Shown: in pieces, positions 20,601 through 64,000 of the stretch
How positions within the stretch are numbered: the first letter of the stretch is position 1
Layout of the letters: each line of letters begins with the position of its first letter
DNA from: Chrysaora quinquecirrha
Lineage: Eukaryota > Cnidaria > Scyphozoa > Semaeostomeae > Pelagiidae
Direction: 5' to 3'
Assembly (NCBI GenBank): GCA_014526335.1
Contig: JACTAT010000059.1
Location: 5,055,428-5,119,427, forward strand
DNA: 64,000 nucleotides
Notes under the pieces: model-generated
The model's input: only the letters and a program-made list of their open reading frames with translations
Database searches by the model: none
Told to the model about the DNA's origin: nothing
Program-made: the position numbers and the translations under genes

Positions 20601-23600
20601 CTTTAATACTTAGTATGGCGAAGGTAGTAATTGTGAACTGTCTTAAAGCCAAGCCAAACCATGCCAAGCCAAGCCAAGCCAAGGCAACCCAAGCCAAGCA
20701 AAGGCAAGCCAAGGCAAACCAAGCCAAACTAGGCCAAGCCAAGAGAAGCCGAGACAAGCCAATGCAAGCCAAGCCAAGACAAGCCAAGCCAAGCCAAGCC
20801 AAGCCAAGCCAAGCCAAGCAGAGCCAAACCAAGCAGAGCCAAGCCAAACCAAGCTAAGGAAAGACAAGCCACGCCAGGCCAAAAAATTTTTGTTTTTGCA
20901 AAGATATGCTCAAATCAAATCATATAAAGACCAATGTAAAAATACTTCAGCTCAACTGCAAGCGATTCGAATCTTATCTCTCTAAGTTCTTAATATCAAA
21001 TTTTTCATGAATGCCAAACACTAGGATAGATTTTTCCTGAAGTTTCATGCGAAAATTGATAGGATTTCAACTCTCAACTGCATGATCAGAGAGCAAACGA
21101 CGATTCCATTGACCTAAAGAGCTCAATGGAGTATACAAGCCATACGGCCCAAGATCATTCTTTCATATAGCTTTATGTTTCAGCTATGTAGAGCCTTCTT
21201 CAGTACCATATAATAAAAATTAACAGGTCGAATAATTGAAGGTTTGTAATACTTAAACACAACATACCTGCAATCAGCAATAAGGGTATCAAGCAGCCTA
21301 ATTAGCAATGCAGCTGTCTCCGCAGGCTGAGCCTTTGCTTTTATACTGATGTCTACTTTCTTCATATTCATTTCCTAATTAAGAGATAACAGTAGCATAA
21401 TAATCAAGAAAAAGCATTTCAAAGCACAATAACTATTCAGCTTCACTTTTCTGAATGATTCAGCTTCACTTTTCGATCCGTATCTGGGTACAAATTCTGC
21501 CTAAGAAAGTAAGTCTGTTTATGAAGGTTTTACTTTGAGCAGTGTCAGAAAAATAAGCTTTTGCATGACCAAATATGTTTTCGCTCTTTTTCCCTTTTTC
21601 GAGATTTTTTTCTTGTATTAAGATATACAACAGAAAGATGCAACATACGCTACAGTAAGAACCCGCATATAAGAAACCCATTTATCAAAACCAAACTGCT
21701 CAGTTTCTTAACAGTTCAGCAATATCCTATGCTGGGATAATCTATCTCTGTTTTTGAAGACATTGGGAAATTGTCCTTCGTTTCAGAGGCGGACTGGCAG
21801 CGAATCTCAAGGGTTGCTATTTCCACTAAANNNNNNNNNNNNNNNNNNNNNNNNNNNNNNNNNNNNNNNNNNNNNNNNNNNNNNNNNNNNNNNNNNNNNN
21901 NNNNNNNNNNNNNNNNNNNNNNNNNNNNNNNNNNNNNNNNNNNNNNNNNNNNNNNNNNNNNNNNNNNNNNNNNNNNNNNNNNNNNNNNNNNNNNNNNNNN
22001 NNNNNNNNNNNNNNNNNNNNNNNNNNNNNNNNNNNNNNNNNNNNNNNNNNNNNNNNNNNNNNNNNNNNNNNNNNNNNNNNNNNNNNNNNNNNNNNNNNNN
22101 NNNNNNNNNNNNNNNNNNNNNNNNNNNNNNNNNNNNNNNNNNNNNNNNNNNNNNNNNNNNNNNNNNNNNNNNNNNNNNNNNNNNNNNNNNNNNNNNNNNN
22201 NNNNNNNNNNNNNNNNNNNNNNNNNNNNNNNNNNNNNNNNNNNNNNNNNNNNNNNNNNNNNNNNNNNNNNNNNNNNNNNNNNNNNNNNNNNNNNNNNNNN
22301 NNNNNNNNNNNNNNNNNNNNNNNNNNNNNNGGTTTTCTGACTGATCGTATATCTAGGGTATAGAAGTAATGATAAATCATAGTCAATGGATAAATACATT
22401 CACTGGCTAAACGATGTTACTCTTAGGTGCCCTATTGCTGGGGATGGAATAAGCAGGGGGTTGGAATTTCAAAGAAAATCCAACTAGCAAGAAGTTGCAT
22501 TAAGCCAGGGAAGTTTGAATTTCATAGACAATATCTCTGGTCTGTAAGGGTTAAAAACTAAGACAAACTCTTCATTCTAGAAGGTAAGAAACTATCATTA
22601 ACAAGGCCAATACGTTGCTTTTCTACAAATGCATCTAATGAAACTCAACGTGTAGCTAACCCAAGATTCAGTTTAATTCTGCCAAAGCAGAATATGGTGC
22701 AAATATTCCGTATAACTCAATAAGTTGAGGTCCTAATAAGAGCGTTGGGTTAGAATTTTCTAATTTAAATTATTTCAGCCGGTAGGGAAAGCAATTAGAC
22801 ATCCAAGAGTAGAACTTCTTGCAAATGTTGAATGAAACAATATCCTTGATCTGCCAATTATTGAAAAATCTAATATTGGGATTACTCTAGATGACAAGCA
22901 GATTACAGCAGTTTGCCCTGAAAGAAAAAATACGGTCGCAGAACATTAATTTGGTTGAACTTCATGCAACATGTTTAGGCTTGTCGCCAGCAGTAATGTC
23001 GCAGCGTGTAGCCGGTTTTTCGCATTGGCTACGCAACACATCGCATTGCTTTCACGCATTTTCCTGGAAATTTTCTAGGACCCATTCTTCTAGGATCCAT
23101 TGTCGCAAAACTTTCGTCGCAGCACTTTTGTTGCAGCATGTAGCCAACTCATGATTTCTCTCAGAACAAAAAATTGTGTGTGTCGCACAGCACAAGTGAA
23201 AAATCTAACGCGTAGCCATGGCTTTGAACATGGAAGAGGAATTGAAGACATAGTTATTAGTCTATTACTTAAGATTTCAACAGGCATATAAATAGAAAGA
23301 TAGAGAGCCAACCTTAGCTTTTTCAAGAATCTCGCTCAAGAATGATGGGATATCCTCACTATCCTTCATGCATAAGCTTGTTTTCCAAGAATGACTATCT
23401 GTAAACACAATTTAATAACTACATCAATATCCTAAAAAAAAATAAATTCCTCATAATGAAACATATTCTACAAGTATTAAATGAGCCTTGTATCATAAAT
23501 ACCCCACTTCCACTACACAAAGGTTTTTGAGTAATTTGAAGTGTCTTGATTTTGACATTGTGGATACTACCATATTGCTATAGCTTCTATCACCTATGGC

Positions 23601-45019: not shown

Positions 45020-45519
45020 NNNNNNNNNNNNNNNNNNNNNNNNNNNNNNNNNNNNNNNNNNNNNNNNNNNNNNNNNNNNNNNNNNNNNNNNNNNNNNNNN
45101 NNNNNNNNNNNNNNNNNNNNNNNNNNNNNNNNNNNNNNNNNNNNNNNNNNNNNNNNNNNNNNNNNNNNNNNNNNNNNNNNNNNNNNNNNNNNNNNNNNNN
45201 NNNNNNNNNNNNNNNNNNNNNNNNNNNNNNNNNNNNNNNNNNNNNNNNNNNNNNNNNNNNNNNNNNNNNNNNNNNNNNNNNNNNNNNNNNNNNNNNNNNN
45301 NNNNNNNNNNNNNNNNNNNNNNNNNNNNNNNNNNNNNNNNNNNNNNNNNNNNNNNNNNNNNNNNNNNNNNNNNNNNNNNNNNNNNNNNNNNNNNNNNNNN
45401 NNNNNNNNNNNNNNNNNNNNNNNNNNNNNNNNNNNNNNNNNNNNNNNNNNNNNNNNNNNNNNNNNNNNNNNNNNNNNNNNNNNNNNNNNNNNNNNNNNNN
45501 NNNNNNNNNNNNNNNNNNN
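45020..45519. other. Assembly gap, 500 N
   Basis: Exactly 500 N. The left contig ends inside the PNRC-like exon; the right contig begins at the edge of the BEL 5' LTR. No gene bridges this gap, so the join is unsupported from within the window. Confidence 0.97.
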
Positions 45520-45520
45520 A

Positions 45521-45763
45521 TATTGTGAAGGTCACGTGTATTGAAAAGTAAAAGTAAGATGCAAATGTAACGTTGACTTGTAAAGGTTTCAGTTTGACCT
45601 AAGAGTCACGCTCAGATTAGAATTCATGTAGACGAGCACGAGCTTGCAGAATGTTAGAAGTAAGAGATATGTAGGTTGTGTTGTAAATAGATGAGTTCAT
45701 TACAGTTTATTTATAACGTCGCCCTTTTATTGCCTTATTCCTGACCCTAAATACATTCAAATA
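45521..45763 (+). repeat. BEL 5' LTR
   Basis: Starts TATTGTGAAGGTCACGTG and ends ACATTCAAATA. It matches 51637-51879 except for CCCTAAAT versus CCCAAAAT. The base before it is A here and G before the 3' copy, so a TG start is not preserved, or the true edge is masked by the gap. Confidence 0.93.
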
Positions 45764-45765
45764 TC

Positions 45766-45783
45766 TGGCGCCCAACGTGGGGC
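45766..45783 (+). other. tRNA primer-binding site
   Basis: TGGCGCCCAACGTGGGGC lies two bases after the 5' LTR. From established knowledge, this 18-mer is complementary to the 3' end of tRNA-Lys1,2, a primer used by several retroelements. Confidence 0.85.
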
Positions 45784-45797
45784 AGGAAAATTTGGGA

Positions 45798-47387
45798 ATG
45801 GCGACAACGGAGTCAGGGCAGAGCAGCTCTAGCGGGGAGCAACAAGAAGAACGTCTTTTGAACAGACTTCGAGCCCTGAGAGGTGGAAATCGTGCGGCAG
45901 CAACCAAGCTTATCGCAGAATTATCGAGCATTATTCAAGATCAACCGGGATCTTTTCGGGAGCCAAATGTGCTGGCAAGACTTGGATCTATCTCACAAGC
46001 TATGAAACAGAAGCAAGAATACCTGACGGAGTTGAATCAGAAGATACTTGAGCTTTGCGATCTTCCTGATATTGATAAAGAGATAGACGAATCTACTGAG
46101 TATGATAAACGTTTAAGCGAAAGTTTGGGGAAAATAACACTCTACAAGCAGGGAAACTACGTGGAGTTTCCTGGAAATGGAAGTTCTGAGGATTCAGAGA
46201 GTCAACCAACAATGAATATTGTTTCTACACCGCCAAGACATTTGGGTCTTGCAAGTTCAAGCAACGGAGTGCAAGGACCTGCAAACTTCGGGACACCAAG
46301 TCATATTTCACAAGGATTTGAACAAAATTCAGGTACAGCAATCAAATTGCCTAAAATAAGTTTGCCACGTTTCAATGGGGACATTAAACGTTTTTCTACA
46401 TTCTGGCAGAGTTTCGATTGTGCTGTTAATCGAAATTCGAGTATCTCTTCAGTTCAGAAATTCAGTTATTTGCTATCGCTGCTTGATGGGGCAGCATACC
46501 GAGCTCTAGAAGGACTTGATCTAACGGAGCAAAATTATGAACATGGTATCGAAATTCTAAAATCACGCTTCGGAAACAAGCAACAAATAATCAACGAACA
46601 CATGTCGGCGTTATTGAAATTACAAGAGTATCCAAATCAGAAAGTTTCGCAGATTCGTTACATTTTCGATAATATAAATGTACACGTGAGAGGCTTAGAG
46701 ACTTTGGGTATGCCTTCTGAGAAATATGGCAGTTTACTCATTCCAATCATTATGAATAGAATGCCCAAAGAAATAACGTCTCAAGTGGCTAGAAAAATTA
46801 CACAGGAAGTTTGGCCTATCGGAGAAATTTTGGATATTATACGAAGTGAAATTGAAGTCAAAGAGTTTGCAGAAAAGGTTACAGTTGCAGAGAAAAAACA
46901 GGAAAGACAGAGCAACAACTTCTCAAAACCAATTCAAGCCACTACTCAGTCATTCATAGCAAACGAGGCAAGGAAATCTCCAATCTGTGTGTATTGTAAT
47001 GGCGAACACTTGTCACTTTCTTGCACAAATGTAACAGATATCAAAGATCGAAAAAAGAAAATAGCAATTGCAAGGCTGTGTTTCATCTGCTTGAAGCCAG
47101 GACACTTGGCCAAGTCATGTTATGGAAACCGAAAATGTAGGAAATGCGGAGGTAAGCATCACCAGAGCATTTGTGAGAAGAAAATTGCTGAATCAGTTGA
47201 ACCTCCTACTGCATCTCATCAAACAGCTCCAGAGTCTACTACTATAAATGCATCAGTACAAACGAAGGGTGATGTGTTAATGATGACGGCATCAGCATAT
47301 GTGTATGGAGAGGATAGAGGAAAACGCAAGAAGACAACAGTTCTTTTGACAGCGGAAGCCAGAGAAGTTACGTTTCAGAAGAACTGA
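45798..47387 (+). CDS. gag: BEL gag, with the start of protease in the shifted frame
   Basis: The first ATG in frame is at 45798 (GGGAATGGCGACA); the open frame continues 21 bases upstream without an ATG. About 529 codons. Residues around 195-340 form the DUF1759-type gag domain, with KISLPRFNGD and FWQSFDCAVN. Near residues 400-470 are cysteine/histidine knuckles (CVYCNGEH, CFICLKPGHLAKSC, CRKCGGKHHQSIC). The frame runs into a stop at 47385-47387 after a one-base shift near 47349, at the protease active-site aspartate region. Confidence 0.9.
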   Translation: MATTESGQSSSSGEQQEERLLNRLRALRGGNRAAATKLIAELSSIIQDQPGSFREPNVLARLGSISQAMKQKQEYLTELNQKILELCDLPDIDKEIDESTEYDKRLSESLGKITLYKQGNYVEFPGNGSSEDSESQPTMNIVSTPPRHLGLASSSNGVQGPANFGTPSHISQGFEQNSGTAIKLPKISLPRFNGDIKRFSTFWQSFDCAVNRNSSISSVQKFSYLLSLLDGAAYRALEGLDLTEQNYEHGIEILKSRFGNKQQIINEHMSALLKLQEYPNQKVSQIRYIFDNINVHVRGLETLGMPSEKYGSLLIPIIMNRMPKEITSQVARKITQEVWPIGEILDIIRSEIEVKEFAEKVTVAEKKQERQSNNFSKPIQATTQSFIANEARKSPICVYCNGEHLSLSCTNVTDIKDRKKKIAIARLCFICLKPGHLAKSCYGNRKCRKCGGKHHQSICEKKIAESVEPPTASHQTAPESTTINASVQTKGDVLMMTASAYVYGEDRGKRKKTTVLLTAEAREVTFQKN

Positions 47388-49230
47388 AAAAACATCTGAA
47401 TCTCAAGGTAGACTCATCTGAGTCAATAAATCTCAACACTTTTGGTTCTTCTAAGTATAACAAAATAAAATTTGATTCTGTAACCGTAAACATTGAAGTA
47501 GAAGGTGGGGTTATACCGGTACATGCGCTTACCCACAACGTTATCTGCACCCCCCTCTCCTCGCGCGTAGACATAGGGCATTTTCCTTATTTGCAAGGCC
47601 TCAAGTTGGCTGACTGCTTTGACAATGGTAGCAGTAAACGCGTAGATATGTTAATAGGTCTTGATTCTTATTTTGATTTTGTACAGGGAGATATCTTACG
47701 TGGTGGTGGCTCTGGTCCTATTGCTATTAAGAGCAAATTGGGCTGGATTCTATCCGGAAAAAGTGGTAGCAATGATAACGTTAATGAAACTGCTAATTTT
47801 GTATCTACTAATCTTATTATAGAAGGTTTTCCAGGAGAAAATTTTGAGAAGGAATCAAGGGACAAAGAATTGATTTCAACTCTGAGAGACTTTTGGAAGC
47901 AAGAAGCATGTGGTCTGTATGACACAGAAGCCACAGCTGAAGAAGATAAACCCATAGAAAAGAACACAGTGAATTCGAACTTAGAAATTACCCACAATGG
48001 TGAAAGATACGAGGTAGGTTTACCTTTTAATTCTTCTTCGCTTGAATTGTTGCCTACAAATTATGATTTGTGTGCAGGGCGTCTTAAATCATTGCATAGG
48101 AAATTATCTGCTAATCCAGGACTGTTGCAGGAATACAATGGAATAATAAAGGAACAGTTAGAATCTGGTATCATTGAAAGGGTTGGTGAAAGGGTTGAAA
48201 CCCCTCAAGAAAAACAGGAGCAGGCTCATTATCTAGCGCATCATTGCGTTGTGCGGGAAGATCACGACACTACAAAGGTCAGAATTGTCTTCGATGGTAG
48301 TGCTAAAGCAAGCAGCGACAAGCCATCTCTCAACGACTGCTTGGAACATGGAGATAATTTTATGCCTTATCTTTTTGATACCATAATTCGCTTTAGATCC
48401 CATTGTATTGGTTTTACGGGAGATGTCGCTAAGGCATTTCACCAAATCGGTATTAGGGAATCTGATAGAGATTTCCTACGTTTCCTATGGTTTGATGACA
48501 TAAACAAGCCGGAACCCTCTATTGTGCCGTTTCGTTTTTGCCGTCTGCCTTTTGGATTGAAGCCCAGTCCTTCAATCCTCGGGGCAACGATTAATAAACA
48601 TGTGTCTTTATTTCAGGAGAAGGAGCCTAAGGTTGTAAAAATTTTACAGCGTATGTACGCAGACGATATGTCCTGCGGCGGAGAAACCCCTCAGGAGGTG
48701 AAAGAGATAGCTTCTAAAGCTAAGGATATTATGAGTAAAGGGGGCTTCAATCTTCGCAAATTCAAGTGTAATGATAAAACAGTGCTAACGGAAATTCGTA
48801 AGTTAGAAGGGATGGATGATCATTCCCAGGTGAATAATAGCAATGTTTTGGAAGACACGCAATCATTCATGCAGTCTTCAGTCGGTTTAGTGTCCAGTGA
48901 CAGCGAGCATATGACTAAGGTGCTTGGAATAAACTGGGACAGCGAGCGAGATGAGTTTTTCTTTGATTTAAGTAGTTTAGCAGTGTTTGCTAAATCATTG
49001 CAGGCAACGAAACGTTCTGTTCTTAAGATAGCAGCTAAGATCTTTGACCCCCTCGGCTGTCTTAGCGTTTATTCTATTAACTTAAAGATTCTCTTTCAGC
49101 AACTATGTGCGCAGAAAGTATCGTGGGATGAGGAATTGCAGGGCGATGCTAGGAAACGTTACGATGAGCTTGTATCCGCATTGAATTCTATTGCAGGAAT
49201 ATGTATTCCACGTAGCTTATTTATAAGGGT
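47351..49230 (+). CDS. pol: BEL pol segment: protease remainder and reverse transcriptase
   Basis: Open in one frame from the protease region to about 49230. The protease C-terminal part reads DMLIGLDSYFDFV and LGWILSGKSG. The reverse transcriptase has VRIVFDGSAK, FTGDVAKAFHQIGI, LPFGLKPSP and the catalytic RMYADDM. The thumb/RNase H junction carries KIFDPLGCLS. A one-base shift near 49230 moves the RNase H part into another frame; the first frame then runs on to a stop at 49405 with meaningless sequence. Confidence 0.9.
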
Positions 49231-50036
49231 AAGCAGGTATCGGATATTCAGCTCCATGCATTCTCCGACGCTAGTGAAGCTGCTTATGCCACTGTGGTCT
49301 ATTTACGTGTTGTATACGAATCTGGGGAGGTCGATATTAAGTTCATTACATCTAAGGCTAAGGTTACTCCTATACAGAAGCAAAGTATCCCAAGACTTGA
49401 ATTAATAGGGCAGCTTTGATGGCTAAGTTAGTCGACACAGTGCGCAGTGTATTACAAGATGAGTTGAACATGGCAGAACCAATCAAAACGTATTACTGGG
49501 TGGATTCAGCAGTCACTCTTTATTGGATAACGAAGAACAGATCGTGGAAAATATTCGTGCGACGTAGGGTAGACGGTATCCTAGCTCTGTCGTCTCGGGA
49601 GGATTGGTGCTTTTGCCCTGGGGTTCTTAATCCCGCAGATATGCCTTCACGTGGTAAATATGGAAAGGATTTTAGCAACAATCCATTATGGTGGAAGGGC
49701 CCAACTTCCTCAAGTTACCTCCACAGGAATGGCCTAAGTTCGGCGAGGTAGGCAATTTTGAAGAAAGTACAGCTATCGTTGAAGAGATCTCAAATCCTCC
49801 TAGTATTACACATGCTATGGTAAGTTCGGTTGAGCAACAAGCATCTCTCACTAACATAGTAGACACCAAACGATTTAGCAGCAAGTCGAAACTGCTAAAG
49901 ACTATTGGATGGGTATTACGGTTTGTAAACAACATCAAGGCTTCTGTACGCAAAGACAATTCTTTGCAAAAGGGCGAAACAATTAGCGTCGATGAAATGG
50001 AATATGCAGAACGGATTCTTGTAAAGGACATTCAAA
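49231..50036 (+). CDS. pol: BEL RNase H and linker, in three frame-shifted pieces
   Basis: The RNase H signature LHAFSDASEAAYA begins near 49250 in a different frame from the reverse transcriptase. The frame shifts again near 49409 (then TYYWVDSAVTLYWI, NPADMPSRG) and near 49698 (then GPNFLKLPPQEWP). All pieces match the usual BEL order, so this is one gene broken by small indels rather than separate genes. Confidence 0.85.
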
Positions 50037-51528
50037 GGAGGCCTTTCATGAAGAGCTCGAGTTCATAGAAGCAAAATCTACTAAGAGTAAGAAAGTCCCT
50101 TTGAAAGTGAATCAGTTTAATCTATTCGTTGACGATCATGGTGTGTTAAGGTGTCGGTCACGGTTAACGAATGCTTCTATTCCAGAGTCTGCAAAACGGC
50201 CGATATTGTTACCCTCAAATAGTTTCTATTCAGAATTAGTGAGCAGGGAAGCTCATGTTCAGGTAATGCATGATGGAGTGAGAGAGACGTTGAATTACAC
50301 CAGACAAAAGTATTGGATTCTGAGAGGCAGAGAGTTAATCAAGAAGCAAGTTAGAAGGTGTGTCACTTGCAAGAAGTTAGAAGGTCTTCCGTTTAAGTTT
50401 AATGTCACACCAGAGCTTCCTATAGAGAGGGTTGATGACTGTGCCCCGTTTACGCATGTAGGGGTAGACTTCGCAGGGCCTCTTATTGTTAAGGAACTCC
50501 CAGGGAGACCTGAACGTAAATGTTATATTTGCCTTTTCACTTGTGCCACAAGTCGTGGCGTCCATTTAGAATTGGTTGAATCCTTAGATCTCGAATCTTT
50601 CATTAGAGCGTTTCGCAGGTTTACCGCACGAAGAGGTCTTCCTGCTACCTTTCTGTCTGATAATGCTAAAACCTTTCGAGCAATGTCCAAAGAGATTAGG
50701 ACGCTCTTAAGATGTCCGAGACTAAATGAATTTCTTTCTTTAAAGGGTGTCCAGTGGAAATTCATTGCAGAAAGAAGTCCCTGGCAAGGTGGTATTTGGG
50801 AACGCATGGTAAGAAGCGTGAAACGCTGCCTAGTGAAGATTGTTGGCAGAGCAATGCTTAGTTACTTTGAGCTTGCTACTATTCTAGTCGAAATTGAGGG
50901 AGTTGTCAATGCGAGGCCCCTCACGTATGTTCATGACGACGTTGACGGTGTTTCATACCCATTAACTCCGTCGCATATGATAAATGGAAGGAATCTGTTT
51001 CAAAGGCCTGAAGACAGACATTACGAAATTGTCAGTACATATGAGACCTTATCTAAACGGGCAAAGTATCAGCGTTATCTCTTATCAGCGTTCAGCAAGA
51101 GATGGAAAAGAGAATATTTAACGTGTCTTATGGAAGCTTATAAGGTAAGGCAAATTAATGATAAACCTTTGATATCTGTAGGTGATATTGTCATTTTAGT
51201 AGACGACCAGAAGAAACGATCCTTTTGGAAACTATCAAGAGTCACTGAGTTGATTCGTGGAAAAGATGGAAACATTCGGATAGCCAAGGTACAGGTGCCC
51301 ACTGAGAAAGGTATAAAGGTTTTAACACGTTCTATTAAGCATCTTATTCCAGTTGAAGTATCTTCATCATTGTCAATGCAGTTATCTGACGATGAGACCA
51401 AGGCAAAGCAAGCGCATAAGGTTAAGGACAACCCCGGCGTCAGTGTAAGCGACCCTTTATCTTCTAGGCCCCGGCGCAGCGCAGCAGTTGTGGGTGAGTT
51501 ATCAAGAAGAATAAATAATGTTAGTTAA
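50037..51528 (+). CDS. pol: BEL integrase with C-terminal DUF5641-like domain
   Basis: The zinc-binding region has histidines in the REAHVQVMHD segment and CVTCKK. The catalytic core has the DDE residues in VGVDFAGP, FLSDNAKTF and GGIWERMVRS. The C-terminal part, VGDIVILVDDQKKRSFWKL, is the DUF5641-type domain usual in BEL/Pao. The open frame ends at TAA (51526-51528), about 107 bases before the 3' LTR. It joins the preceding piece through a one-base shift near 50035. Confidence 0.92.
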
Positions 51529-51879: not shown

Positions 51880-51965
51880 GACAATTTCACACCAAAATAG
51901 TTGTCCGTAACGCAGCACTGAGTCGCTTAATATTTTTGCTCTTATAATTTTTTTCTTCATTATAG

Positions 51966-53777
51966 AATCCTCATGATATGGAGCACAACCATGGCCATTC
52001 ACATGGAACTATTGACAATAAAACTTCAATTGCACACGTGGCATGGATGGTAATTGTTGGTGATGGATTTCATAATTTCAGTGATGGCCTCGCTATCGGT
52101 GCAGCATTTGCAGCCTCGTATACAAGTGGCATTAGTACTGCTATCGCTGTGTTCTGTCATGAACTGCCTCACGAACTTGGTATGTTGGTATTCTTTGACT
52201 ACAGTCAGTATACGCATCTTCGATTGCATAATTTTTTCATCTCCTTCCCTATTACTATGCTATTACAAGTGCATGCAACTTTGGTCTGTCAGCGAGTCTT
52301 TTCTGCTCATGCCTCCTTGTGATCATGCAAGGTCAAGGCATACCTTTACCTTTTACCGATTTTCTTTGCAAAGGCACAGGAAACATTCAAGGACTCAAGA
52401 GAAATGTTCCTTCACTTCCCTCGCCAGACTACCTCCCGACTACCCTAATAATACGGTAGGACCCCCTAAACATGATTGCAAGGGCCGTAGCTGAAATACC
52501 AACGTCTAAAAGTGAGAGTGGTGATTAGGAAGTGAGTCACTCGTGCGAGAGACTGGGTTGCAAAACACTACTCTTCCTAATCATCTTAAACCCCTCATTT
52601 CTGACAAAGTTGCTTTGCTATTGTACTGATGTGCTGCTACACAGTTTGCCCGCTCTATCTATAGTTATGAGTGACTCAGCTTTTTCTTCCATAGGTGACT
52701 TTGCAGTGCTGATCAAATCTGGAATGTCGATCAAACAAGCAGTTTGTTACAATTTGGTATCAGCAGTACTCAGTTACATTGGGCTTGTGATTGGAATAAT
52801 TGTTGGTAACTATTCAGCTGACGGAAAACAATTCGCATTGGCACTCACAGCAGGTCTCTTTCTCTACGTCGCCCTTGCAAACATGGTGAGTTCAGATTAT
52901 ACATCATATAAGTACGTTTACCTGATTTGCTTGCGATTGATGACACCGATTCGGGACTAAGTTTTGTGACAGAAAATGAGAGGGTGCCTAGCAGTTGCGA
53001 CAGTCGAATTCAAAATTGCCTACTTGCAACCCATTAGTCAATTACCTGGGCAAATTTTTCAAAACAAGACCAATAACCACGGCAAAAAATCCGCAATTTA
53101 CGCATAACCCGGGGCGGCAAATGTATGCCACCCCTCCTAGGTGAGTGAGTCAACCATCAGTTACCCCCCCCCCCTCTCGCAGTAATCTCACACAAAACAA
53201 CTTGATCATGAATGATTGCTTTCATAGTTAATATTTTGGCACGACTGAAGGCAAGAGTCCGTGAGTCCGTCTCTCATAATTCATAGAGAATTAGTTGAAG
53301 AACTCTTTCTGTCTACTAAACATTGCCTTGTTGGTTTCGATGTGGACAGATTCCTTAACTCCTAAATGAAACTAAGATCTTGCTTTGCAAATAATTCGGA
53401 ACAAATCCTTGCTGAAATTTTCTGCAAAATTATCTTAGTTTGTTTTGGTCTACCCGGAGATTTTTCACAAGCCTTCAGGTATTTTTCGAGTGCTCTTCTG
53501 GCGGCTAGTGTCGTTCTGTTTAGCTGCATGGGATCTCCAAGTCAGTTTAAATGCTCTTCGTCGTTTGACCCTTCTAATCCAGTGTTCTTGTTTGTTTTAT
53601 CATACAGCTTTTCATTACTGATTTCGTTTTATCATACATTATTTGCAGCTTCCAGAACTGACGTCCAGTATCGACGATGATGTTGGTGATGCGTGGTCCT
53701 TCATTTCTCCTCATCTTGGGATAATCACCGGAATTGTCATCATGCTACTCATCTCAATCTTCGAAGATAAGTTTTAG
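51966..53777 (+). CDS. LIV-1-type ZIP zinc transporter (SLC39A6/A10-like), last three exons
   Basis: Exons 51966-52179, 52695-52885 and 53649-53777, with matching phases and a TAG stop. Exon one begins in frame ([14 protein letters not shown], a His-rich loop). It then gives [17 protein letters not shown] (TM4, with the H, N and D metal ligands) and CHELPHELG, completed to HELPHELGD by the splice (TM5). HExPHExGD is the LIV-1 subfamily signature. Exon two gives [14 protein letters not shown] and [14 protein letters not shown]; exon three ends [11 protein letters not shown]. These match ZIP6/ZIP10 best. Such transporters import Zn2+ into the cytosol. The 5' half of the gene (signal, His-rich ectodomain, TM1-3) is absent. 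The BEL element fills the intron just upstream, and the contig starts at its LTR. Confidence 0.92.
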
Positions 53778-53923
53778 TTATGAAAAAGGTTACATATATG
53801 ATTTCTAGCTCTCATAACAGCTTACTTGGCCAGTTTGGATTCCGATTTCATTAAAGCACCCCGGATTCGATAAGTTCTGCTTCTTCTGTCCTTCTGGGGG
53901 CATACAACATACACGTTTTTTTT

Positions 53924-54276
53924 TATAAGAAACCTGGCTCGGGGCCTAGTTCTAAAAGTTTCTTAATTTTTGGCCCAATTTTAGTTCTAAAAGTTTCTTA
54001 ACAGTTTCTTGATTTTATGGAAAAAATTGCAGTAAAAACGATAAAAAACGGGATATTATTAATAAAATTATTAATATTATTGTATTACAAAGAATTAGTC
54101 ATGCTGGTACGAGAAATTGCACGGAAATGCTAGAGAATTGATAACTACGTCCACAAATGTGAAATCAGTATGTTGGAAAACTGACACAAAAATTTCTCAA
54201 GTTTCTTAACTTCTTCCTCCTAGTTCTAAAAGTTTCTTAACTTTTGGGGTGTCGAATTCTAGGTTTCTTATAAACT
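53924..54276. repeat. Inverted-repeat element with TTATAAGAAACC termini
   Basis: Left end TTATAAGAAACCTGGCTC and right end CTAGGTTTCTTATAAA are inverted. Inside, AGTTCTAAAAGTTTCTTAA occurs three times. Confidence 0.6.
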
Positions 54277-54431
54277 GTTTTTTTTTATAAAAAAACGTTT
54301 ATGTTTATTTAACTTGTATGTTGTCATCAATCATGATTAGTTGAAAAGTTGCAGTGTAATCAAAAGCACTAGACAGCATACATACTTTGATTTATGAATT
54401 AATTCATTTTATTTAACACGCACATTTTTCC

Positions 54432-54596
54432 TTTATAAGAAACATCAGCCTAAGATTTGCATTTGGGTCATTTTTTTGCTATTTTCAAAATACTCGAGTT
54501 AAAACAAACGAAGGGGAATGATATGGTGGTGAAAAACCAGTCTCGTAAAAAGAAACAAGCAGGCTTGGTTTGGAGCCAAATTTTCTTATAAAGAAT
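54432..54596. repeat. Small relative of the TTATAAGAAA element
   Basis: TTTATAAGAAACATCAGCC at the left and AATTTTCTTATAAAG at the right are inverted termini. No coding capacity. Confidence 0.5.
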
Positions 54597-55087
54597 TATG
54601 TACGTACTGAAACGCCTAGATATTTTTTAAATGAATTTATAGGTATTCGAGTATGGTCTGGAAGCGTATAAATGACTATGGCCTTTGTTGTTGATTTTAC
54701 AGTGCCTATGAAATGATATTTTAATTGAACCTTTTTTATCAAAAATAGAAACTTGGAAACATCCTTATGCTAAAAATTGATACGTGGCCGAAAAGTGTGC
54801 ACGGAAAGGGTTGTTTCAGGAGGTTTGAAAATCACAGGTTGCTGTGACCATAGCAAAAACAAATTATGGCGTCACGAGGTTTGCAACACAATTCATAAAA
54901 CAGAAGCACACATGCTGTGGCTACTTCAAGGGAAGAAATTTACCAAGAAGAAACATTTTACAGTTGTTCCGAGAGAGACGTTCATGTTCAGTGTACAACG
55001 CCTGAAGAACTGCACTTTCTTGCAGGGATTGCAAACCCCGTGACGTCACAAATAGCGCGCTTTTTGTCACACAAAAAATTCTAAATA

Positions 55088-55678
55088 CAGTTGACATCCG
55101 CTATCTCGAACTCTCAAGGGAAACTGGAATTTGTTCGAGATAGCGAATGTTCGAGATAACGGATGCCCCATATAAATATAAAAAATTATTGTTTTTAAGT
55201 CAGAAAAGGAACCCCTATTAACATGCAGGGTTACTGATCCCAAATTTCATCAAACAAGTCTGGTACTTTTTAACAAAGGAGTCAAAGATCATCTGCTTTC
55301 ATCCCTACTATTGGTGAAATTGAGATAATGGCGATGCAGCACATCTGGAAAGAGAACAGCTTCATCTATTGTATACAAGGGCAGCATATCACTTAGCTAC
55401 TGCCATTCCCGCTCCGATAGGTGAATTTTATACATATTGTCAGCCTGTCTCTTTATCCAGTTCAGCAGAAAATTTGGCGAAGTTCGAGATAAAGAGCAGG
55501 TTTTCCCCCATGGGAAATCAAAAATGGTTCGAGACAGCGAATGTTCGAGATAACGGGGTTTGAGATAGCGGATGATTTTTCTATACAAACCCTTGTACCA
55601 AAACGAGGGGAAATGGAAAATCGTTCGAGATAGCGAATGTTCGAGATAGCGGGCAGTCGAGATAGCGGATGTCAACTG
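55088..55678. mobile_element. Non-autonomous pogo/Tc1-mariner-type element, 591 bp, TA target site
   Basis: Terminal inverted repeats begin CAGTTGACATCCGCTATCTC and end GAGATAGCGGATGTCAACTG, each flanked by TA (55086-55087 and 55679-55680). Both ends carry extra subterminal copies of TTCGAGATAGCGAATG. No transposase frame is present. A CAGT start and TA duplication are typical of the pogo/mariner superfamily; the family name is inferred. Confidence 0.85.
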
Positions 55679-56050
55679 TACTTTATTTTCCGCCGGGCAT
55701 ATGAGGAGATTCCCTAACGTCAAACCCAAAAAAATGGCATCACTAAAACCAGCTAATTTTGTTCTACAAGAAAACACTGATAATTTGAAATGTAATATTT
55801 CATTTCATAGGCACTTTAAAAACAAAGATTCGATTAAGGATTTGCAATGTAATCCAATGGACAGAAAGCATTTACCGTGGTTTATGATTTAAATTAGTTA
55901 ATCTAACAATTGCAAACGCTTAGGCACTTTTTTATTTGTGAGGGTCTTCGAGCTGAAGTATTTCCACAATTATTACTACACATTTTAACAAGTTTTGTAA
56001 TATGCATTGTATGTATGGTTTTCTGAATCTTACGAATAAACTGAAACACA

Positions 56051-56322
56051 CTGTAAACCATTAAACATTGTTGATCAAACATTTTTGTCTTTACAAATTA
56101 CAAACAATGTTTGACCGTTTGGCAAGGTCACAAAACATCGCTTGGCAAGCAGAACATGAATGGCAATGTTTTTTTAAAACTTCAAAAACAAGATCTGCTT
56201 GCCGTAAGCAAAAATGATTGATGAGCAATGTTCTGTGATGTAGCCAAAGGATCAAACATTCTGTTTGACAAGAAGATTTCAGATGTTAGGCCAGCAATGT
56301 TTGATCGTTTGGCTAGGGCCTA
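56051..56322. repeat. MITE of the ATCAAACATTG family
   Basis: Left end: ACCATTAAACATTGTTGATC and AATGTTTGACCGTTTGGC. Right end: AGCAATGTTTGATCGTTTGG followed by CTAGGGCC. It is the same family as 6184-6467. Confidence 0.65.
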
Positions 56323-56346
56323 AGAACTGTGATCAGTGATCGGTGT

Positions 56347-56588
56347 TAAGCTGTGGCTAAACAAGGAGACATGTTGTGCGCAACTGTGTATTTGGGGTGT
56401 CTCCAATGGTGGCTAAACATGCAAGTAACAAAGCGAGCGACATGTCCCCCTAGTCGCGGAGACAAAAAATGTTTCTGCTTTCACCCGCTACAGAGTTTCC
56501 GAGGTGGCGAAACTGGGAGACATCGAGGGGACATGTTACGCTTGACAATGTCGCACGCGACATGTCTCCTAGTTTCGCCAGGCCTTTA
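56347..56588. repeat. MITE with GTGGCTAAAC/GTTTCGCCA termini
   Basis: Begins TAAGCTGTGGCTAAACAAGG and ends CTCCTAGTTTCGCCAGGC. The inner words GAGGTGGCGAAACTGGGAG and ACATGTCCCC match the longer element at 17998-18468. Confidence 0.65.
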
Positions 56589-57244
56589 TTCAAAAGCACG
56601 GGGATGCAAGGGCAGGACTTACACGCCCGTAGGGATAAAGGTAAAAACTAATTTGTGTTGGAACAGCAGAGACTAACCACTACGTTTCTTGAAGCCAACG
56701 TTGTACTGTAAGCAGCGATTTGCCCCTCGGTATCCTAAAAATGCATACCATTAGTTCAGTGTCAAACCAAACATGATTTATTTAACATCAATGATATTTC
56801 TGAACTTTTTTATAGAAGGGTTGGTGTAAATATAATATTTCGTATTTTTCATTGGCAGTAATATTCTTCGATTGTAGTATTTTTACCAACAAATCTCTTG
56901 ATATTGCACCTAAGAACAATTTTGGGATATATTTCTGGATAATTTTTTGTATTTGGCATTTTAGTATGTAAAAACTTAATAAAGTAGTTTTTGTCAGATT
57001 TCTAATGGATTGTTTGTAATGTTAGATAACTGATATTCTGCACAAATTATATTTCACATCAATCTTACTTTGAGTATTTGTATTTTTTTTTATTTCAAGC
57101 CTCCTAGCCTCTCTCAGAATCTGGAATTAGAAACAGCTCTCGCTCCTCCACGGGGTTTCTGTGAGGTTTGAGAAGTATGATTCGGACTCGTGAACACAGG
57201 TTTAAATGACAGATAAAGCACAGATTTGATCTGTCGTTTATAAA

Positions 57245-57420
57245 CCCAAGAGGGCTGGGTCTAATTGCTATGTATTGCGGTTATAACAAGCAATACCTAA
57301 ATATGGGCGTAAACATCCGAACGATGCATGTGAGAAGAGGACTGGATCTAATTGCTATGCATTGCGGTCCTGGCATGCAAGGCCCCGATGTGGCCGTAAC
57401 CTCCCGAATGAAGCATGTGT
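57245..57420. repeat. Two tandem units of about 90 bp
   Basis: Each unit contains GG(G/A)TCTAATTGCTATG(T/C)ATTGCGG, then a ...GTAAC/GTAAACAT-CCGAA block and GCATGTG. No coding signal. Confidence 0.55.
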
Positions 57421-58403
57421 GAATTCTTTCAATCAGAAAATCTTCGCATGTTGCATGCTCAGCGTTACAGATTTAATCTCATCAATTCGAACTATTATTT
57501 AAACGCGCCTTCCCACCCGCCCTCTGCTCTCTCTCTTTCTCTTTTCTAATTTCTCCTATTACTCCTCCTTCTCACTGCTCCTTCCGCAGTGGGACAGGTG
57601 CGTTAGTCACCGACCTTAAAACCACTGTCTTAGTCAGGCAGTTCATGGGTTTGCAGAGGCTAGAGAGCCGGGGGTGCCCATTCGAGCACATGGGCCAGAA
57701 ATCCTTTTCCTGTTCAACGCACTGTCTATAAGAGTAGTTTATCCCTATATAAGGCTAAAGGGCTGTTGGCAATAGGTTAACCATGTGCTCCTTGGGCCCC
57801 TTGGAGGCTACTCATTTGTGTCTAATGAACTAACGCCCAACTTCCTGACATTCCATCCCGAGTTGGTGGGATTAACAGCCCGCTTACACGAGCAACAGGA
57901 GCGGATCCAGATCAAACTTTGTTACTTTAATAAGCATGCGCACAGGCTATAAAGAAGACAGTGGCCACCCTAACCTTGCGAAGTTAACAATAATAGCCTG
58001 TGCAGCCAATAGACTTTTGGCATGACTGCCAAGGATTTTTCAAGTTAAGAGAAATGTGATCAGAGACTGTAATTTTTCGAGCCTTTCTCAGTGAATTTCC
58101 TAAAAATATTTTCTCCTCAGACCGTATGGGATCGTACGCGAGCCGTTCTATTTACAACTGATATCCAAGGCAAAAGATCTTATAGACATCTCCAAGCAAT
58201 ATTTTGAAGAAAATTAGGGTTTTCCTAGTGGTTTAAACTAGAAGAAGTTTCCGATTTTGCTGGAAAAACATCAAGATAACAACGTTATGTACTGTACTGA
58301 CAACAGCACATGGCTGTGCGGTGACTACAACTACAACAATGCAATGCGGGTGCTAGCACGCGTGACGTAATAATGGGAATGGTCTATTAAAAAGGTTAGT
58401 TGT

Positions 58404-58640
58404 CAGGTCCCTTTTCAACGTCCCCCCACTTTTTCAATAAGGTCAAAGAAAATGTTTGTTTTGCTGCTGATGATAGAGTATTCATTTTCGAACATTCCTA
58501 TTGCTGCTGCAATACACCAGACCAACAAAGCAGCTGATTGTCAGGTCCCTTTTCAACGTTCCCCCACCTTTTCCACAAGGTCAAACAAACTGTTTGTTTT
58601 GTTGCTGATGATAAAGCATACAGCCTGCGGCTCAGCCGAT
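58404..58640. repeat. Direct repeat, two units about 136 bp apart
   Basis: TCAGGTCCCTTTTCAACGT, CCCCCAC and CTGATGATA appear in the same order in both units, with a few changes. Short ORFs across it show no known domain. Confidence 0.6.
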
Positions 58641-59017
58641 TCTCAAACGGTTGAGCGCCTGCATGCAGGTTGTGCTATCCAGCAGCTATTTTTGAATGTG
58701 TTTTTAGAATTATCAATAAAATTATTCTTTTGGAGAGTTGTTTTTCATGTACATTTCGTTTCATGATTAATTTAAGTCTTTTGTCAGGAATAGCGAATTG
58801 CAATTCAAAAGACTCCATAGCAATACCTGTAGCAATGTCTGAATCTATAGCCGGGCGTCCTGTAAACTGATTTGGTAAGAAGATACATGAAGAGATATAA
58901 CTTAGAGTCGTAGATTTGTTTTTATCACAGAACGGCGAGAAAGGGCAGTGACTAAATGAAAACTTATTAATACATCGTATTACAAGAATGCGCTGAAGTG
59001 ATATATATTGTACTGAA

Positions 59018-62000
59018 ATGATTATTGCAGTTCAATTGATTCTCCTCTTTTTCATTGCACTAGGTTGTTCAGATGCAGCAACAAATTCTTCAACAATATT
59101 GCACATTGAGTACTTTGAAAATCCACCGTATATATACAGATCCAATGGAAAGATGCTCGGAGAACTGCCTTATATTTTATCATATTCGAAAAACGGGCCA
59201 TGCAAACATGCTAACTTTTCGATTGAATACGGCGAACCAATGATGCGCTTTGAAGATTTGCTGGTGCAAGTTCGAAATGTTTCTGCTACGATGAAGTTAA
59301 GGGACAAAATTTACGCACTTGCGCCATTCACGGATAAGGACTCAATTGGTCATCCATATTTACAGCATTTTCATACAATGGTTATTGCCAAAACTGCTGG
59401 ATATACAATGATAACTAATAAGCTAACCAAGAACAAGATATACAGGATCGTCATGTTTGGCATGAGTGAAAGTATAACGCTTATTGTTGCTCTTGTTATA
59501 TTTACAGTGGTTGCAGCAATTTTGGTATGGCTTGTGGTAAGATTATTCTAAATATTATAATTAATTACAAAAAGCAACTTTTATTTTCGAAATTTTGCCT
59601 CCCGGAGATATTACAATATCCACATTACATCTCTGTTGACTAGTTGTACTTAGCGCCAGTAGGTACAATCTTGGGACCAAATGTTGGGAACAAGATCTCT
59701 TTTCAAGGAATTCGTCAATTTTATAATTTGAAAACCCCTTAATCCCCGAACCCTAAAAAACATTGGTAGTAAAGCAAGACAACTTTTGTTCGAAACGATA
59801 TTTTAACAGGAGAGAAGGGGGGATCCATAGAAAATAGCAAACCTATTCAGGTTGTTCCAAGATATTCTGTCCGAGATTACAGGGTCTCAGAAGGGCGATT
59901 AACTAGCGACATCTTGGCTTTGATGGTACTGTGGCTGAGGTTCGAGCCCCGATACTGCTGACTTCACAAGACAGTACGAGCTAGTTGGATTAAAGTGGGC
60001 GCAAACCGGCCAACATTGTTGGCTAAAAATGGGCCAACATGCTGGCACGGTGCCATACCATCACAACATCTGAGAAGTTTTGGGTTGCTGACGTCATCTA
60101 CAAAAAACGATATTTTGCAAACATGACAGAAAAGGCAGCAGCTATTTGTTTATTGCTCGCTCTTTTAGTTCACGAAGAAGAAGAAAGAACTCCTGTTCAA
60201 ACTCAAACCGCCACCTTTAATCTATTACTCATTTAAGGGTCTCCGAAATAAAGACCAAAATTGAAACTGTTGTGCCAACATGTTGGTGAGACATAGCAAA
60301 CTGTACCAACACACCAGTTTGATTCAAATCGACGAAAATGTTGGCCAAAATTTTTAAACATGCTTAAAAATGTTGGCCAACATTTTTCCGCCAATAACAT
60401 GTGGCACGGTTTGCGCCTGGCTTTAGAATAAATGGATTAGGCCACGACCCAAGGCTGCATAGCTCTCACTTGTGGATGCTATCACACTTTACGCTTTATC
60501 AACAACCGCCGTCTTTTTCTCAATCGTTCTTTCTCGCTGGCTCTCCTTCGCCTCGTTCTCGATAATGAAACTTTTGACAGTCAGCTGCTTTGCATTTCTG
60601 TCCATCTTAGCGACACATCAATTGGCATGAAGAGTTTCTAGTTCATAAAAATGCAAATAAAGATATTTTGAACAATAAGCTTCGATGGGATTGCTTTTAC
60701 ACTGTACACCTGTCTTGCGCTCTACGGACTAAAAATGCACCACAAGAAATAAAGGCAGTGATAATACGTTTCCCGCTATAATCTATCGTAAAAAAGCCAT
60801 TGGTGTTGTGAGATCCACGTCAGTTAGATTAGCAATGGCTGTGAAATTTTTTCCGTAAACACATGCACTTTCATAAAAAAACACTTTTCTAAACAGTAGT
60901 CTGTCACTTTTAACAGAACTTTTATATTCCTTGTTCTAGGAGAGAAGTCAAAATAAAGACGCGGACTTTTCTTATCGCTTTTTGCCGGGAATATGGGATG
61001 GAATCTGGTGGGCGTTTGTGACTGCAACAACGGTTGGGTAAGTACAATGTGATACCCAAACTGTGTTAAATGAGGGGGTAAAGGGGGTCTTCAGCACCCT
61101 TCACGGAGAATCGAAATCGACTTTTACAAAAAAGCTAAACTTTCGCACTTTCGCTTCACGCTTAATACTCGCTTATGTTTCACGAAATTTTTTTGGTTAC
61201 TTTCATGTCACATATTTTACGAATAAGTGGTTGAATTAGTTATCCTTGTGGTGGGCGCTCAGTTTCCTATCTTTATCTTCGCAAATAAATGCTTGGGGTC
61301 GAATCCCGTCAATGTCGGAATCAGGAACTATAAATTGGGGTCGATTCAATTCAGCTTTCCATTCTGGAGGTCGGTAAATTAGTACTTTTAAGCACTCGAA
61401 TTTCATTGGGGGGAAAAATACAATCTCATAGTCAAATAAATTTGAAATCTATTGGAGAAATTTTGAAATGTCACAAGCGGTCAATTTTTAGAATTTTCCA
61501 AATAACGGAGAATCTGTTTTCTTGTTTTCAATGTGAGTGCAATAAAAAAGGTTAAAAAACAGACCTGCAGTAAAAAAGCCAAAATGTCCATCATTATAAT
61601 GTTTTTATCTCATGATTCAACTCTCAGCTTAAAACATGATGCTCACTGATGATAACCCTCCACGATACTCCGCATCCTCTACTAACATGATGATATCCCT
61701 CCAAGTTGCTGATGATAACCCTCCACTGTACTAATGATAACCCTCTACATTGCATTGGCTCCCTCCGGTGTACTGATGATAACCCTCCACGTTGTATTGG
61801 CACCCTCCACTTTTCTGATATCCCTCCACGTTGTATTGGCACCCTCCACTTTTCTGATATCCCTCCACGTTGTATTGGCACACTCACCTATACTGCACGT
61901 CTTCCACGTTACTCCACATCACGTTGTACGGGGTGATTCTAATTCCTGGGGTTGAGGTACATGATTTTATACACGCCCAGATTTTACAAGCCCAGCGATT

Positions 62001-64000
62001 TAAAATTTAGACATAGATCCCATATTATGAGTTACCAGCTAAATTTAGACCATTTTATGCCGACCATATTTGTACTACGAACATCTTCGAGGCGATATTA
62101 ACACTATTCGGACTCAAACGGAGTGACATTTTTCAGTTTTCCTCAATTTTCCAGCCTCTTGTCCGGATTTTTCGTTAAAATCATATCCATGTTTAAAGAA
62201 TTTCAGAGCCAAAAGCCCATCAATATGGGCGGCACAGAAAATTACCAAAATAATATTAAGAACCTCCCTCCTATTCATGGTTCAGTTACATGAAAGAGTA
62301 GGGAAATCTACAAGATCCTTGTACAATATGAGCTGCCCAAACTAAAGACCCCCTAACGTCAAAGTTATAAGTACAGTTTCTGGTTTGAAAGCACGTCGTG
62401 CAGTTAACCTCGCTTGATGTTTGGACTTTACTTTTCATCTCTAGTCCGTTCATTCCAGGGGTGATTCACACCTTGGGAATCTCGTACACACTTGTCAAAA
62501 TTTCCGTTGATTTCAAGGAAATCCCTGCGAAATCTTTTAGATTCAATAGGATTCGCGTACGCTTTTGGGAGAATGAAATACCCTTCGCTCTAATTCTCTT
62601 TTCGATTTTAGATATGGCGACAAAACTCCGAAAACCTTCCTTGGCAGGCTGATTGGACTATTATGGCTATTCATAAGCATTACACGGCTATTATGACTGC
62701 AACTATTACGGATGAGATCGGTTTAAAAGATAAAAAGGTATCAGCTGTTTGTTTTTTTAAATTTTCAACCTCATTTGATGAACTTCCACAATTTACAGAA
62801 ATTTTGCAAAAGTGCAAGATACGAGATAGCAAGATGCTTGTTTTATAATTAAAGGTCTACCTATTACAAACATGGCCTCTATTACTGTATTCAGCTTGTG
62901 AAATTGGACAGAATTAGACTCCGTTTACCTGAGAGAAACAGATACGGATCATACCTTTCGGGTACGATTTCATTGTTTCCACACGGGAACGGATCCAATG
63001 GATTCGCCTTCAGCGTCCTCAAAAAGATACGATCTCGTTCCCAATACGGAACGGATTTATGCGTGCGTACCCGTGGAAACGATCAACGGAAAAGAGCAAA
63101 TCCACTCGGATCCGTTCCAGCATGAAATAGGGTCTTATTCTCCACCAGTTGAACTCACAAAACTAAGCGCTTGTTCTAATCCATCAGTGCGTACCCGTGG
63201 AAACGAAAAATCTTTCGTAACCTATTTGAGAGCGGATCCACTCATATTAGTGTCATAGGGGGTCTTATACTAAATCCACTGAACTCACAAAACTGAGCGT
63301 TCGTTCTAGATTCTATGCATTAATGCACGTTAAAAGTTATAGTCTTATAGAAATATCCGAATTTCAATGATTATCAAAGAAGGGCTAATAGAGTTTCAAG
63401 TGAAAATCAAATTTAATTATAGTCTCAGTCCCACATGTTGCTCAAGAATTATAGGCCAATTTTCTCTGCTATGAGATCAAATGTATACACTTGTGCGCTG
63501 GTTTCATTCTACCCTTACAATCCTCTAATTGTTTTCCTAACTTTTTCACGAAACATCTGTGAAATCCCCTTGCTTATGCTGGTCTTCAAGGTGGCAGCTT
63601 GTGCAGAGTAAAAACAAGCACTTTTTTCATTGATAGCTATTTGTCGAGAATGTTGCAGGACTGACTCTAATTTTTCTGCTTGTTTTAGATAGCATATTTG
63701 AATGGAACAACAGCAAACGAATACATTCTTGAAGACACTGGCATACCTATTCGTAAGTCACACATTATCATAACAGGGATACTCTAATAGCAAAATCATT
63801 GACAAAGGGCTTGAAGGGAAGGTCTCCAGCCTAGCCCCGTATTGCATAATGATGATCGCTTACTAGCCCTTGGAGTCACATTAGAAGAAAATACCCTATT
63901 CCTAAAGTTCTTTGATCACGACTTGCCAGTTAGTATTAAGTTTTTCTAGCTGTTGCAAAACTTGATGTAGACGTTGACGGCAAAGTCTTTCCAACTCCTC
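59018..64000 (+). CDS. GluR0-like receptor channel: ligand-binding halves around a K+ pore (5' exons, partial)
   Basis: Exons 59018-59536, 60940-61037, 62612-62737, 63689-63752 and 63950 to past the window end. Exon one starts with a signal peptide (LILLFFIALGCSDA). An ectodomain of about 125 residues follows, with IEYFENPPYIYRSNGK and ALAPFTDKD, resembling the first lobe of iGluR/periplasmic binding domains. Three N-glycosylation sequons lie at Asn23, 66 and 87, and a membrane helix at about 152-173. Exon two gives GIWWAFVTATTVG, and exon three completes the K+ filter TVGYGDKTP and begins the second helix. The next exons, IAYLNGTTANEYILEDTG and VAKLDVDVDGKVFP, match the start of lobe two. 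This is the plan of bacterial GluR0 and the rotifer K+-selective GluR. Exon three carries a one-base frame break near 62680-62692, exposing TGA at 62694; the later phases fit only if it is an indel. Confidence 0.85.
59905..59990 (+). repeat. tRNA-like SINE head fragment
   Basis: CTGAGGTTCGAGCCCCGA looks like a pol III B box, preceded by AACTAGCGACATCTTGGC. It lies in the first intron of the channel gene. Confidence 0.4.
59996..60420. repeat. MITE with GCGCAAACCG termini, about 425 bp
   Basis: The left end GGGCGCAAACCGGCCAACAT is inverted at the right as GGCACGGTTTGCGCC. GGCCAACAT and ATGTTGGCC words recur throughout. It lies in the channel gene's first intron. Confidence 0.7.
61680..61930. 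repeat. Minisatellite with 39-bp units
   Basis: CCCTCCACGTTGTATTGGCA followed by CCCTCCACTTTTCTGATAT is repeated from 61783 in exact 39-bp steps (61783, 61822, 61861). Degenerate CCCTCCAC units flank it. It lies between the pore exon and the exon that completes the filter. Confidence 0.85.
62890..63310. repeat. Diverged internal repeat in a channel intron
   Basis: GTGCGTACCCGTGGAAACGA occurs twice (near 63062 and 63187), and GAACTCACAAAACT(A/G)AGCG twice (near 63151 and 63279). ACGGATCC-type words are frequent. Probably a decayed mobile element. Confidence 0.5.

Follow-up and report, generated by a model that had tools for sequence, protein, structure and literature searches.

A probable frame-broken duplicate of a putative ligand-gated potassium channel gene in a cnidarian genome

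Can an animal gene carry a potassium (K+) selectivity filter inside a split ligand-binding domain of the glutamate-receptor type, and is the copy at hand a working one? The question arises from a plus-strand gene that begins at position 59018 of the window, i.e., the whole 64,000-nucleotide stretch of DNA analyzed here (C420:5055428-5119427; genome of 328 Mb in 740 contigs). A preliminary description had seen in it a gene of five exons with consistent phases, built on the two-helix plan of the bacterial channel GluR0. Our analysis makes it likely that the gene in the window, of which only the 5' portion is visible, is a recent duplicate with a broken frame, that its parent type is a receptor-channel gene like those of anthozoans, and that such a gene, when intact, encodes a ligand-gated K+ channel. 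The family is of a known kind but apparently undescribed, and the window contains a broken member of it.

Exons, intact copy and domain order

Four exons of the window gene, all with GT/AG borders, are homologous to full-length relatives. Exon 1 (59018..59536) encodes a hydrophobic leader, lobe 1 (S1) of the binding domain and the first transmembrane helix (TM1, about codons 155-173), and matches the full-length eukaryote protein P0001 (495 aa) with an expectation value (E) of 9e-49. Exon 2 (60940..61037) encodes the pore helix together with the filter's first half (ending in WWAFVTATTVG), and exon 3 (62612..62737), whose frame is broken internally, the second half (YGDK) and the starts of the second helix (TM2) and of lobe 2. 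Exon 4 (63689..63752) belongs to the start of lobe 2 (IAYLNGTTANEYILEDTGIPI). The filter, TATTVG/YGDK, is cut by an intron in phase 2 within the first Gly codon of GYG. Signal sequences were judged by a hydrophobicity threshold rather than by a signal-peptide predictor; of the signal peptide proposed earlier, the hydrophobic leader in exon 1 is upheld.

The closest relative of the window gene is P0001, the best database match of the window exon model (57% identity, 91% query coverage, E 1.9e-92, with a doubtful fifth exon included in the query). The other family proteins came from two further searches, one using P0001 as query and one a seven-sequence alignment, each scoring the 7996 candidates that had the most words in common with the query. 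The seven family proteins are P0001 (EukProt), P0100 (Montipora capricornis), P0102 (M. foliosa), P0103 (Nematostella vectensis LOC5511609), P0101, P0105 and P0108, the last without the start of lobe 1.

A second locus, found by searching the same genome with P0001, lies at C246:688791-697867 on the minus strand. Its seven exons comprise 487 codons (487 aa) with no stop, and its protein runs from a leader through lobe 1, TM1, a TTVGYGDK pore, TM2 and lobe 2 to a third helix (TM3, residues 383-401) and a helical tail. The window exons recur in this copy at ∼95% DNA identity, the peptide of exon 4 being identical, so that the lobe-1 ectodomain, TM1, split filter, starts of TM2 and lobe 2, strand and splice sites given in the preliminary description are upheld both here and by the match of the exon model to P0001. 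Its fifth exon (63950..64000, plus strand) has to be given up: in the intact copy the near-identical stretch falls within an intron, and the exon that actually follows (AHTYEEALDM..., as in a relative) is found ∼2 kb farther downstream. Since positions 64001-76531, in window coordinates, consist of N, lobe 2 of the window copy is legible only to exon 4. The presence of a second lobe downstream had been set beforehand as a test, and this lobe was found in the intact copy and in the database relatives.

In the intact copy and relatives, lobes 1 and 2 of the periplasmic-binding-protein (PBP) type flank the pore, and a profile of the lobes alone retrieves GluR0 and amino-acid-binding proteins. The proposal that a single animal protein combines a K+ filter with a split domain of this type surrounding it was supported. 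A third helix follows lobe 2 in all six proteins tested by hydropathy (C246, 383-401; P0001, 396-414; P0100, P0101, P0103 and P0105), and the leader exceeded the threshold in C246, P0001, P0101 and P0103. Because of this third helix, the two-helix plan of GluR0 is unsupported, and the predicted plan is the three-helix one of ionotropic glutamate receptors (iGluRs) with a K+ filter, similar to that of the rotifer receptor AvGluR1. In the profile check suggested in the preliminary description, Ion_trans_2 (PF07885, the two-helix K+ pore; cut-off 22.5) scored 40.4 bits (2.7e-10) with window exons 1-3 and 47.9 with P0001. The Lig_chan (PF00060) scores of 18.6 bits for window exons 1-3 and 28.0 for P0001 were both under the curated cut-off of 30.8, but PF00060.33 is assigned to P0001 and relatives in the database's precomputed list. 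The result for SBP_bac_3 is given below.

Bacterial contamination was considered and rejected, in view of introns at a shared codon position.

The broken frame and the duplicated block

Exon 3 of the window gene lacks 16 bp that are present in the intact copy (junction at 62681..62682, plus strand), and part of TM2 is lost with them. The frame is lost after ...LLWLFIS and reads ...YGDKTPKTFLGRLIGLLWLFISITRLL to an in-frame TGA at 62694..62696 (plus strand), giving a product of 233 aa; the continuation, AIMTATITDEIGLKDKK, stands in another frame, and no GT usable by an intron occurs between the two frames of the exon. Neither the consistent phases of the preliminary description nor a reading of the window copy as a working gene is supported.

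The gene part of the window (58557-64000) is 92-96% identical in DNA to the C246 locus, introns included, with a mean of about 95%. The visible part of the duplicated block extends over 51901..64000 (plus strand) with a boundary at 51901, and is mostly 92-98% identical; insertions such as that at 54697-55816 interrupt it, and in a single piece of 367 bp the identity drops to 87%. Between C246:668-720k and either the window upstream of 51901 or the legible sequence after 76531, no match of at least 150 bp was found. With no such match outside the block, the arrangement resembles a dispersed duplication, 12-25 kb in length, more than a pair of haplotypes. Compared over 265 codons, the two copies differ by 5.5 non-synonymous and 10.5 synonymous changes, a ratio of non-synonymous to synonymous rates (dN/dS) of 0.14. 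Had one copy drifted freely after the split, we estimate that amino-acid changes would be at least threefold more numerous, so the lesion is either recent or a product of faulty assembly.

The same low dN/dS, together with the intact splice sites of the window copy, would also be expected if the deletion were artefactual, arising in assembly or from haplotypes, and the gene in the window were functional. We regard such an artefact as unlikely, though worth keeping in mind, since a deletion of 16 bp is atypical of homopolymer error, and since the collinear block stops at 51901, with nothing matching in the 15 kb of C246 read beyond it, which makes a two-haplotype picture improbable. Far less probable is a regulatory or dominant-negative role for the truncated 233-aa product, which would comprise lobe 1, TM1, the pore and part of TM2. 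The frame is indeed open up to the TGA, with leader and pore included, but all of lobe 2 and part of TM2 are gone, the transcript would probably be destroyed, and such a form was seen in none of the relatives read. Least credible of all is the assignment of these exons to an ordinary voltage-gated K+ channel, even though the 60 PDB matches listed of 229 (up to E 1; exons 1-3) are K+ channel pores, e.g., KvAP, KCNQ, Kv1 and Kv2. These matches cover the pore region, and the adjoining exons encode binding lobes; there is no S1-S4 voltage sensor, a leader and one helix alone preceding the pore of the C246 protein; and the filter is uninterrupted in the Kv-like loci of this genome. The intact copy, with binding lobes on both sides of its pore, rules this assignment out. 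A young, frame-broken duplicate of a receptor-channel gene thus remains our preferred account of the window copy.

Relatives and copies in this genome

All three species-labeled family members (Nematostella vectensis LOC5511609, Montipora capricornis and M. foliosa) belong to Hexacorallia, which is the basis for speaking of hexacorals here, and bear the database label "uncharacterized". They share the family and architecture, with 20-25% identity overall to P0001. P0101, P0105 and P0108 come from short contigs (1.8-3.5 kb) in which frames of 450-537 aa run without a break, a pattern that suggests spliced transcripts. The TVGYGDK columns are invariant among the relatives.

In the genome itself, the two halves of the filter occupy neighboring exons at 19 loci, one of them the window copy, and 10 further clusters show one half only. 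This number counts paired exon matches rather than intact genes. It derives from 78 typed rows among 129 match rows (37/63 plus 41/66); the 51 rows left out comprised, by our reading, 43 of ordinary K+-channel type (37 with frames of 124-703 aa and 6 with frames of 74-79 aa), five other family exons and three from C653. The script returned 23 clusters with both halves, and four of these (C213:1103k and three of C653), in which a single match spans both halves, were dropped. Wherever the filter was read on both sides (14 of the 19 loci: C246, C420, two on C213, C257, two on C190, C80, C92, C124, two on C399, C268 and C323), the intron lies inside the first Gly codon of GYG in phase 2. At C268 and C323 one or both sides had been missed by the pattern scan, and both were found on closer inspection. 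Ordinary Lig_chan exons also occur in this genome, and none of the seven legible ones (eight inspected) has GYG. The family is sizeable and, it seems, undescribed.

Another member is represented on C213 by two opposed copies ∼150 kb apart, at 392-400k (plus strand) and 543-551k (minus strand), whose matched peptides are identical, which suggests an inverted duplication.

Ligand, proposed mechanism and known channels

By analogy with GluR0 and AvGluR1, an intact family protein would form one subunit of a ligand-gated K+ channel, presumably a tetramer, that lies in the membrane in the orientation of iGluRs. The architecture is read from the sequence, and orientation, gating, selectivity and physiology are carried over from those two channels. 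Its extracellular clamshell, formed by lobes 1 and 2, would close on a small molecule, and closure would pull TM2 and open the pore, whose inverted loop bears the K+ signature TTVGYGD; the ensuing K+ efflux would hyperpolarize the cell.

Several observations weigh against this proposal. The leaders of P0100 and P0105 fall below the threshold. The lobes lie below Pfam detection, SBP_bac_3 (PF00497) being found in one of the seven family lobe sequences (E 0.013), and a confident lobe model depends on bacterial rows: an AlphaFold model from the seven family rows only gave mean predicted local distance difference test (pLDDT) values of 24-49 for the lobe blocks and 61-84 for the pore and TM2. Whole-chain Foldseek matches to AMPA and NMDA receptors reached E of about 1e-11, but with a query-normalized template modeling score (TM-score) of 0.30-0.35; the Foldseek and VIA lists speak only for the families listed in them. 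A tree of the pore (97 rows, 71 columns) leaves the choice between GluR0 and other K+ channels undecided, since neither the grouping of the 17 family rows (approximately unbiased test, p-AU 0.797) nor their placement among K+ channels and away from GluR0 (p-AU 0.524) was rejected. Finally, the lobe-1 Arg, which we take to be the carboxylate-binding residue, is not conserved. In an alignment of 56 rows, 42 of the 49 bacterial-type rows carry R at this position (7 do not), and the seven family rows have D, A, K, A, L, R and S (Arg in one of seven, the alignment being weak there).

This last point bears on the nature of the ligand. No Arg or Lys occurs among the invariant lobe-1 columns of the family, whereas lobe 2 has Asp in 7/7 family rows and Ser or Thr at its helix start, likewise in 7/7. 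In GluR-type domains this Asp contacts the ligand amine. Gating of the K+ channel by glutamate or another amino acid, in the manner of AvGluR1 and GluR0, would account for these lobe-2 residues and for the domain order and filter that the family has in common with both. We nevertheless think it improbable, as the lobe-1 Arg lacks a conserved counterpart, although in this weakly aligned region a basic residue may have shifted. With no conserved arginine for the carboxylate, glutamate does not suggest itself as the ligand and seems doubtful in that role; the lobes probably do not bind an alpha-amino acid in the customary manner. We read this as a clamshell that may still close on a ligand, outside the standard glutamate pose. 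Canonical ligand residues are commonly missing from insect-type ionotropic receptors (IRs) as well.

With AvGluR1 the family has the K+ filter, PBP-type lobes and third helix in common, and it differs in its non-conserved arginine, its multigene nature and its filter-splitting intron; the likeness is one of architecture, orthology being a separate matter. AvGluR1 was reportedly studied by Janovjak (2011) and Lomash (2013). With animal iGluRs (AMPA, NMDA, kainate and epsilon) and insect-type IRs the family shares the domain order with a third helix, and whole-chain Foldseek matches have the low TM-score given above; ordinary iGluR pores lack GYG, and the family here lacks an amino-terminal domain. 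Passages of two papers (PMC12226733, PMC12332018) present AvGluR1, from the bdelloid rotifer Adineta vaga, as the animal case of a K+-filter receptor; it is reported to respond to glutamate, alanine, methionine and cysteine. GluR0 of Synechocystis and other bacterial "Group 1" channels (PMC2950845, 2010; PMC13099474) share the S1-TM-P-TM-S2 order, K+ filter and homologous lobes with the family, which adds TM3, a helical C-terminal tail and introns to the two helices of GluR0; according to PMC13099474 the membrane orientation of GluR0 is opposite to that of the usual K+ channel and like that of animal glutamate receptors.

As far as these texts go, the combination was in 2010 found only in bacteria (PMC2950845), and K+-selective channels of the glutamate-receptor type in the literature are bacterial, with one rotifer exception. 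The main text of a 2018 metazoan survey (PMC6307864) contains no occurrence of GYG, "potassium" or "selectivity filter", and a literature search of titles and abstract starts, most subscription journals being outside it, returned no recognized description of the family. The earlier statement that among animals only a rotifer receptor was known agrees with these sources, although same-family entries of Nematostella and Montipora exist unnamed.

It may be, and we advance this tentatively, that hexacorals possess an expanded, undescribed set of chemosensory-type K+-channel receptors. These would be the inhibitory equivalent of insect IRs, a variety of ligands other than glutamate opening inverted K+ pores and silencing cells. 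Such a family could let a chemical signal silence rather than excite a cell. As a multigene family of corals and anemones that has the third helix of iGluRs, it would offer a test of how iGluRs went from K+ to mixed-cation selectivity, of whether animals have fast ligand-gated inhibition by way of K+, and of what cnidarians sense by it.

An Rfam scan of the window gave no matches at gathering thresholds, and two runs of exactly 500 N occur at 21831-22330 and 45020-45519. Just upstream of the block boundary at 51901, pieces of a BEL/Pao-type long terminal repeat (LTR) retrotransposon extend over 45717-51525 (plus strand) in three long frames, carrying DUF1759, DUF1758 and Pao peptidase A17, reverse transcriptase and integrase. 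Within the duplicated block lies an exon of a ZIP zinc transporter (PF02535) at 52529-52957 (plus strand; E 3.2e-15). Downstream of the window, a reverse-transcriptase-like frame was recognized by eye from the translation at C420:5139428-5149427, on the minus strand.

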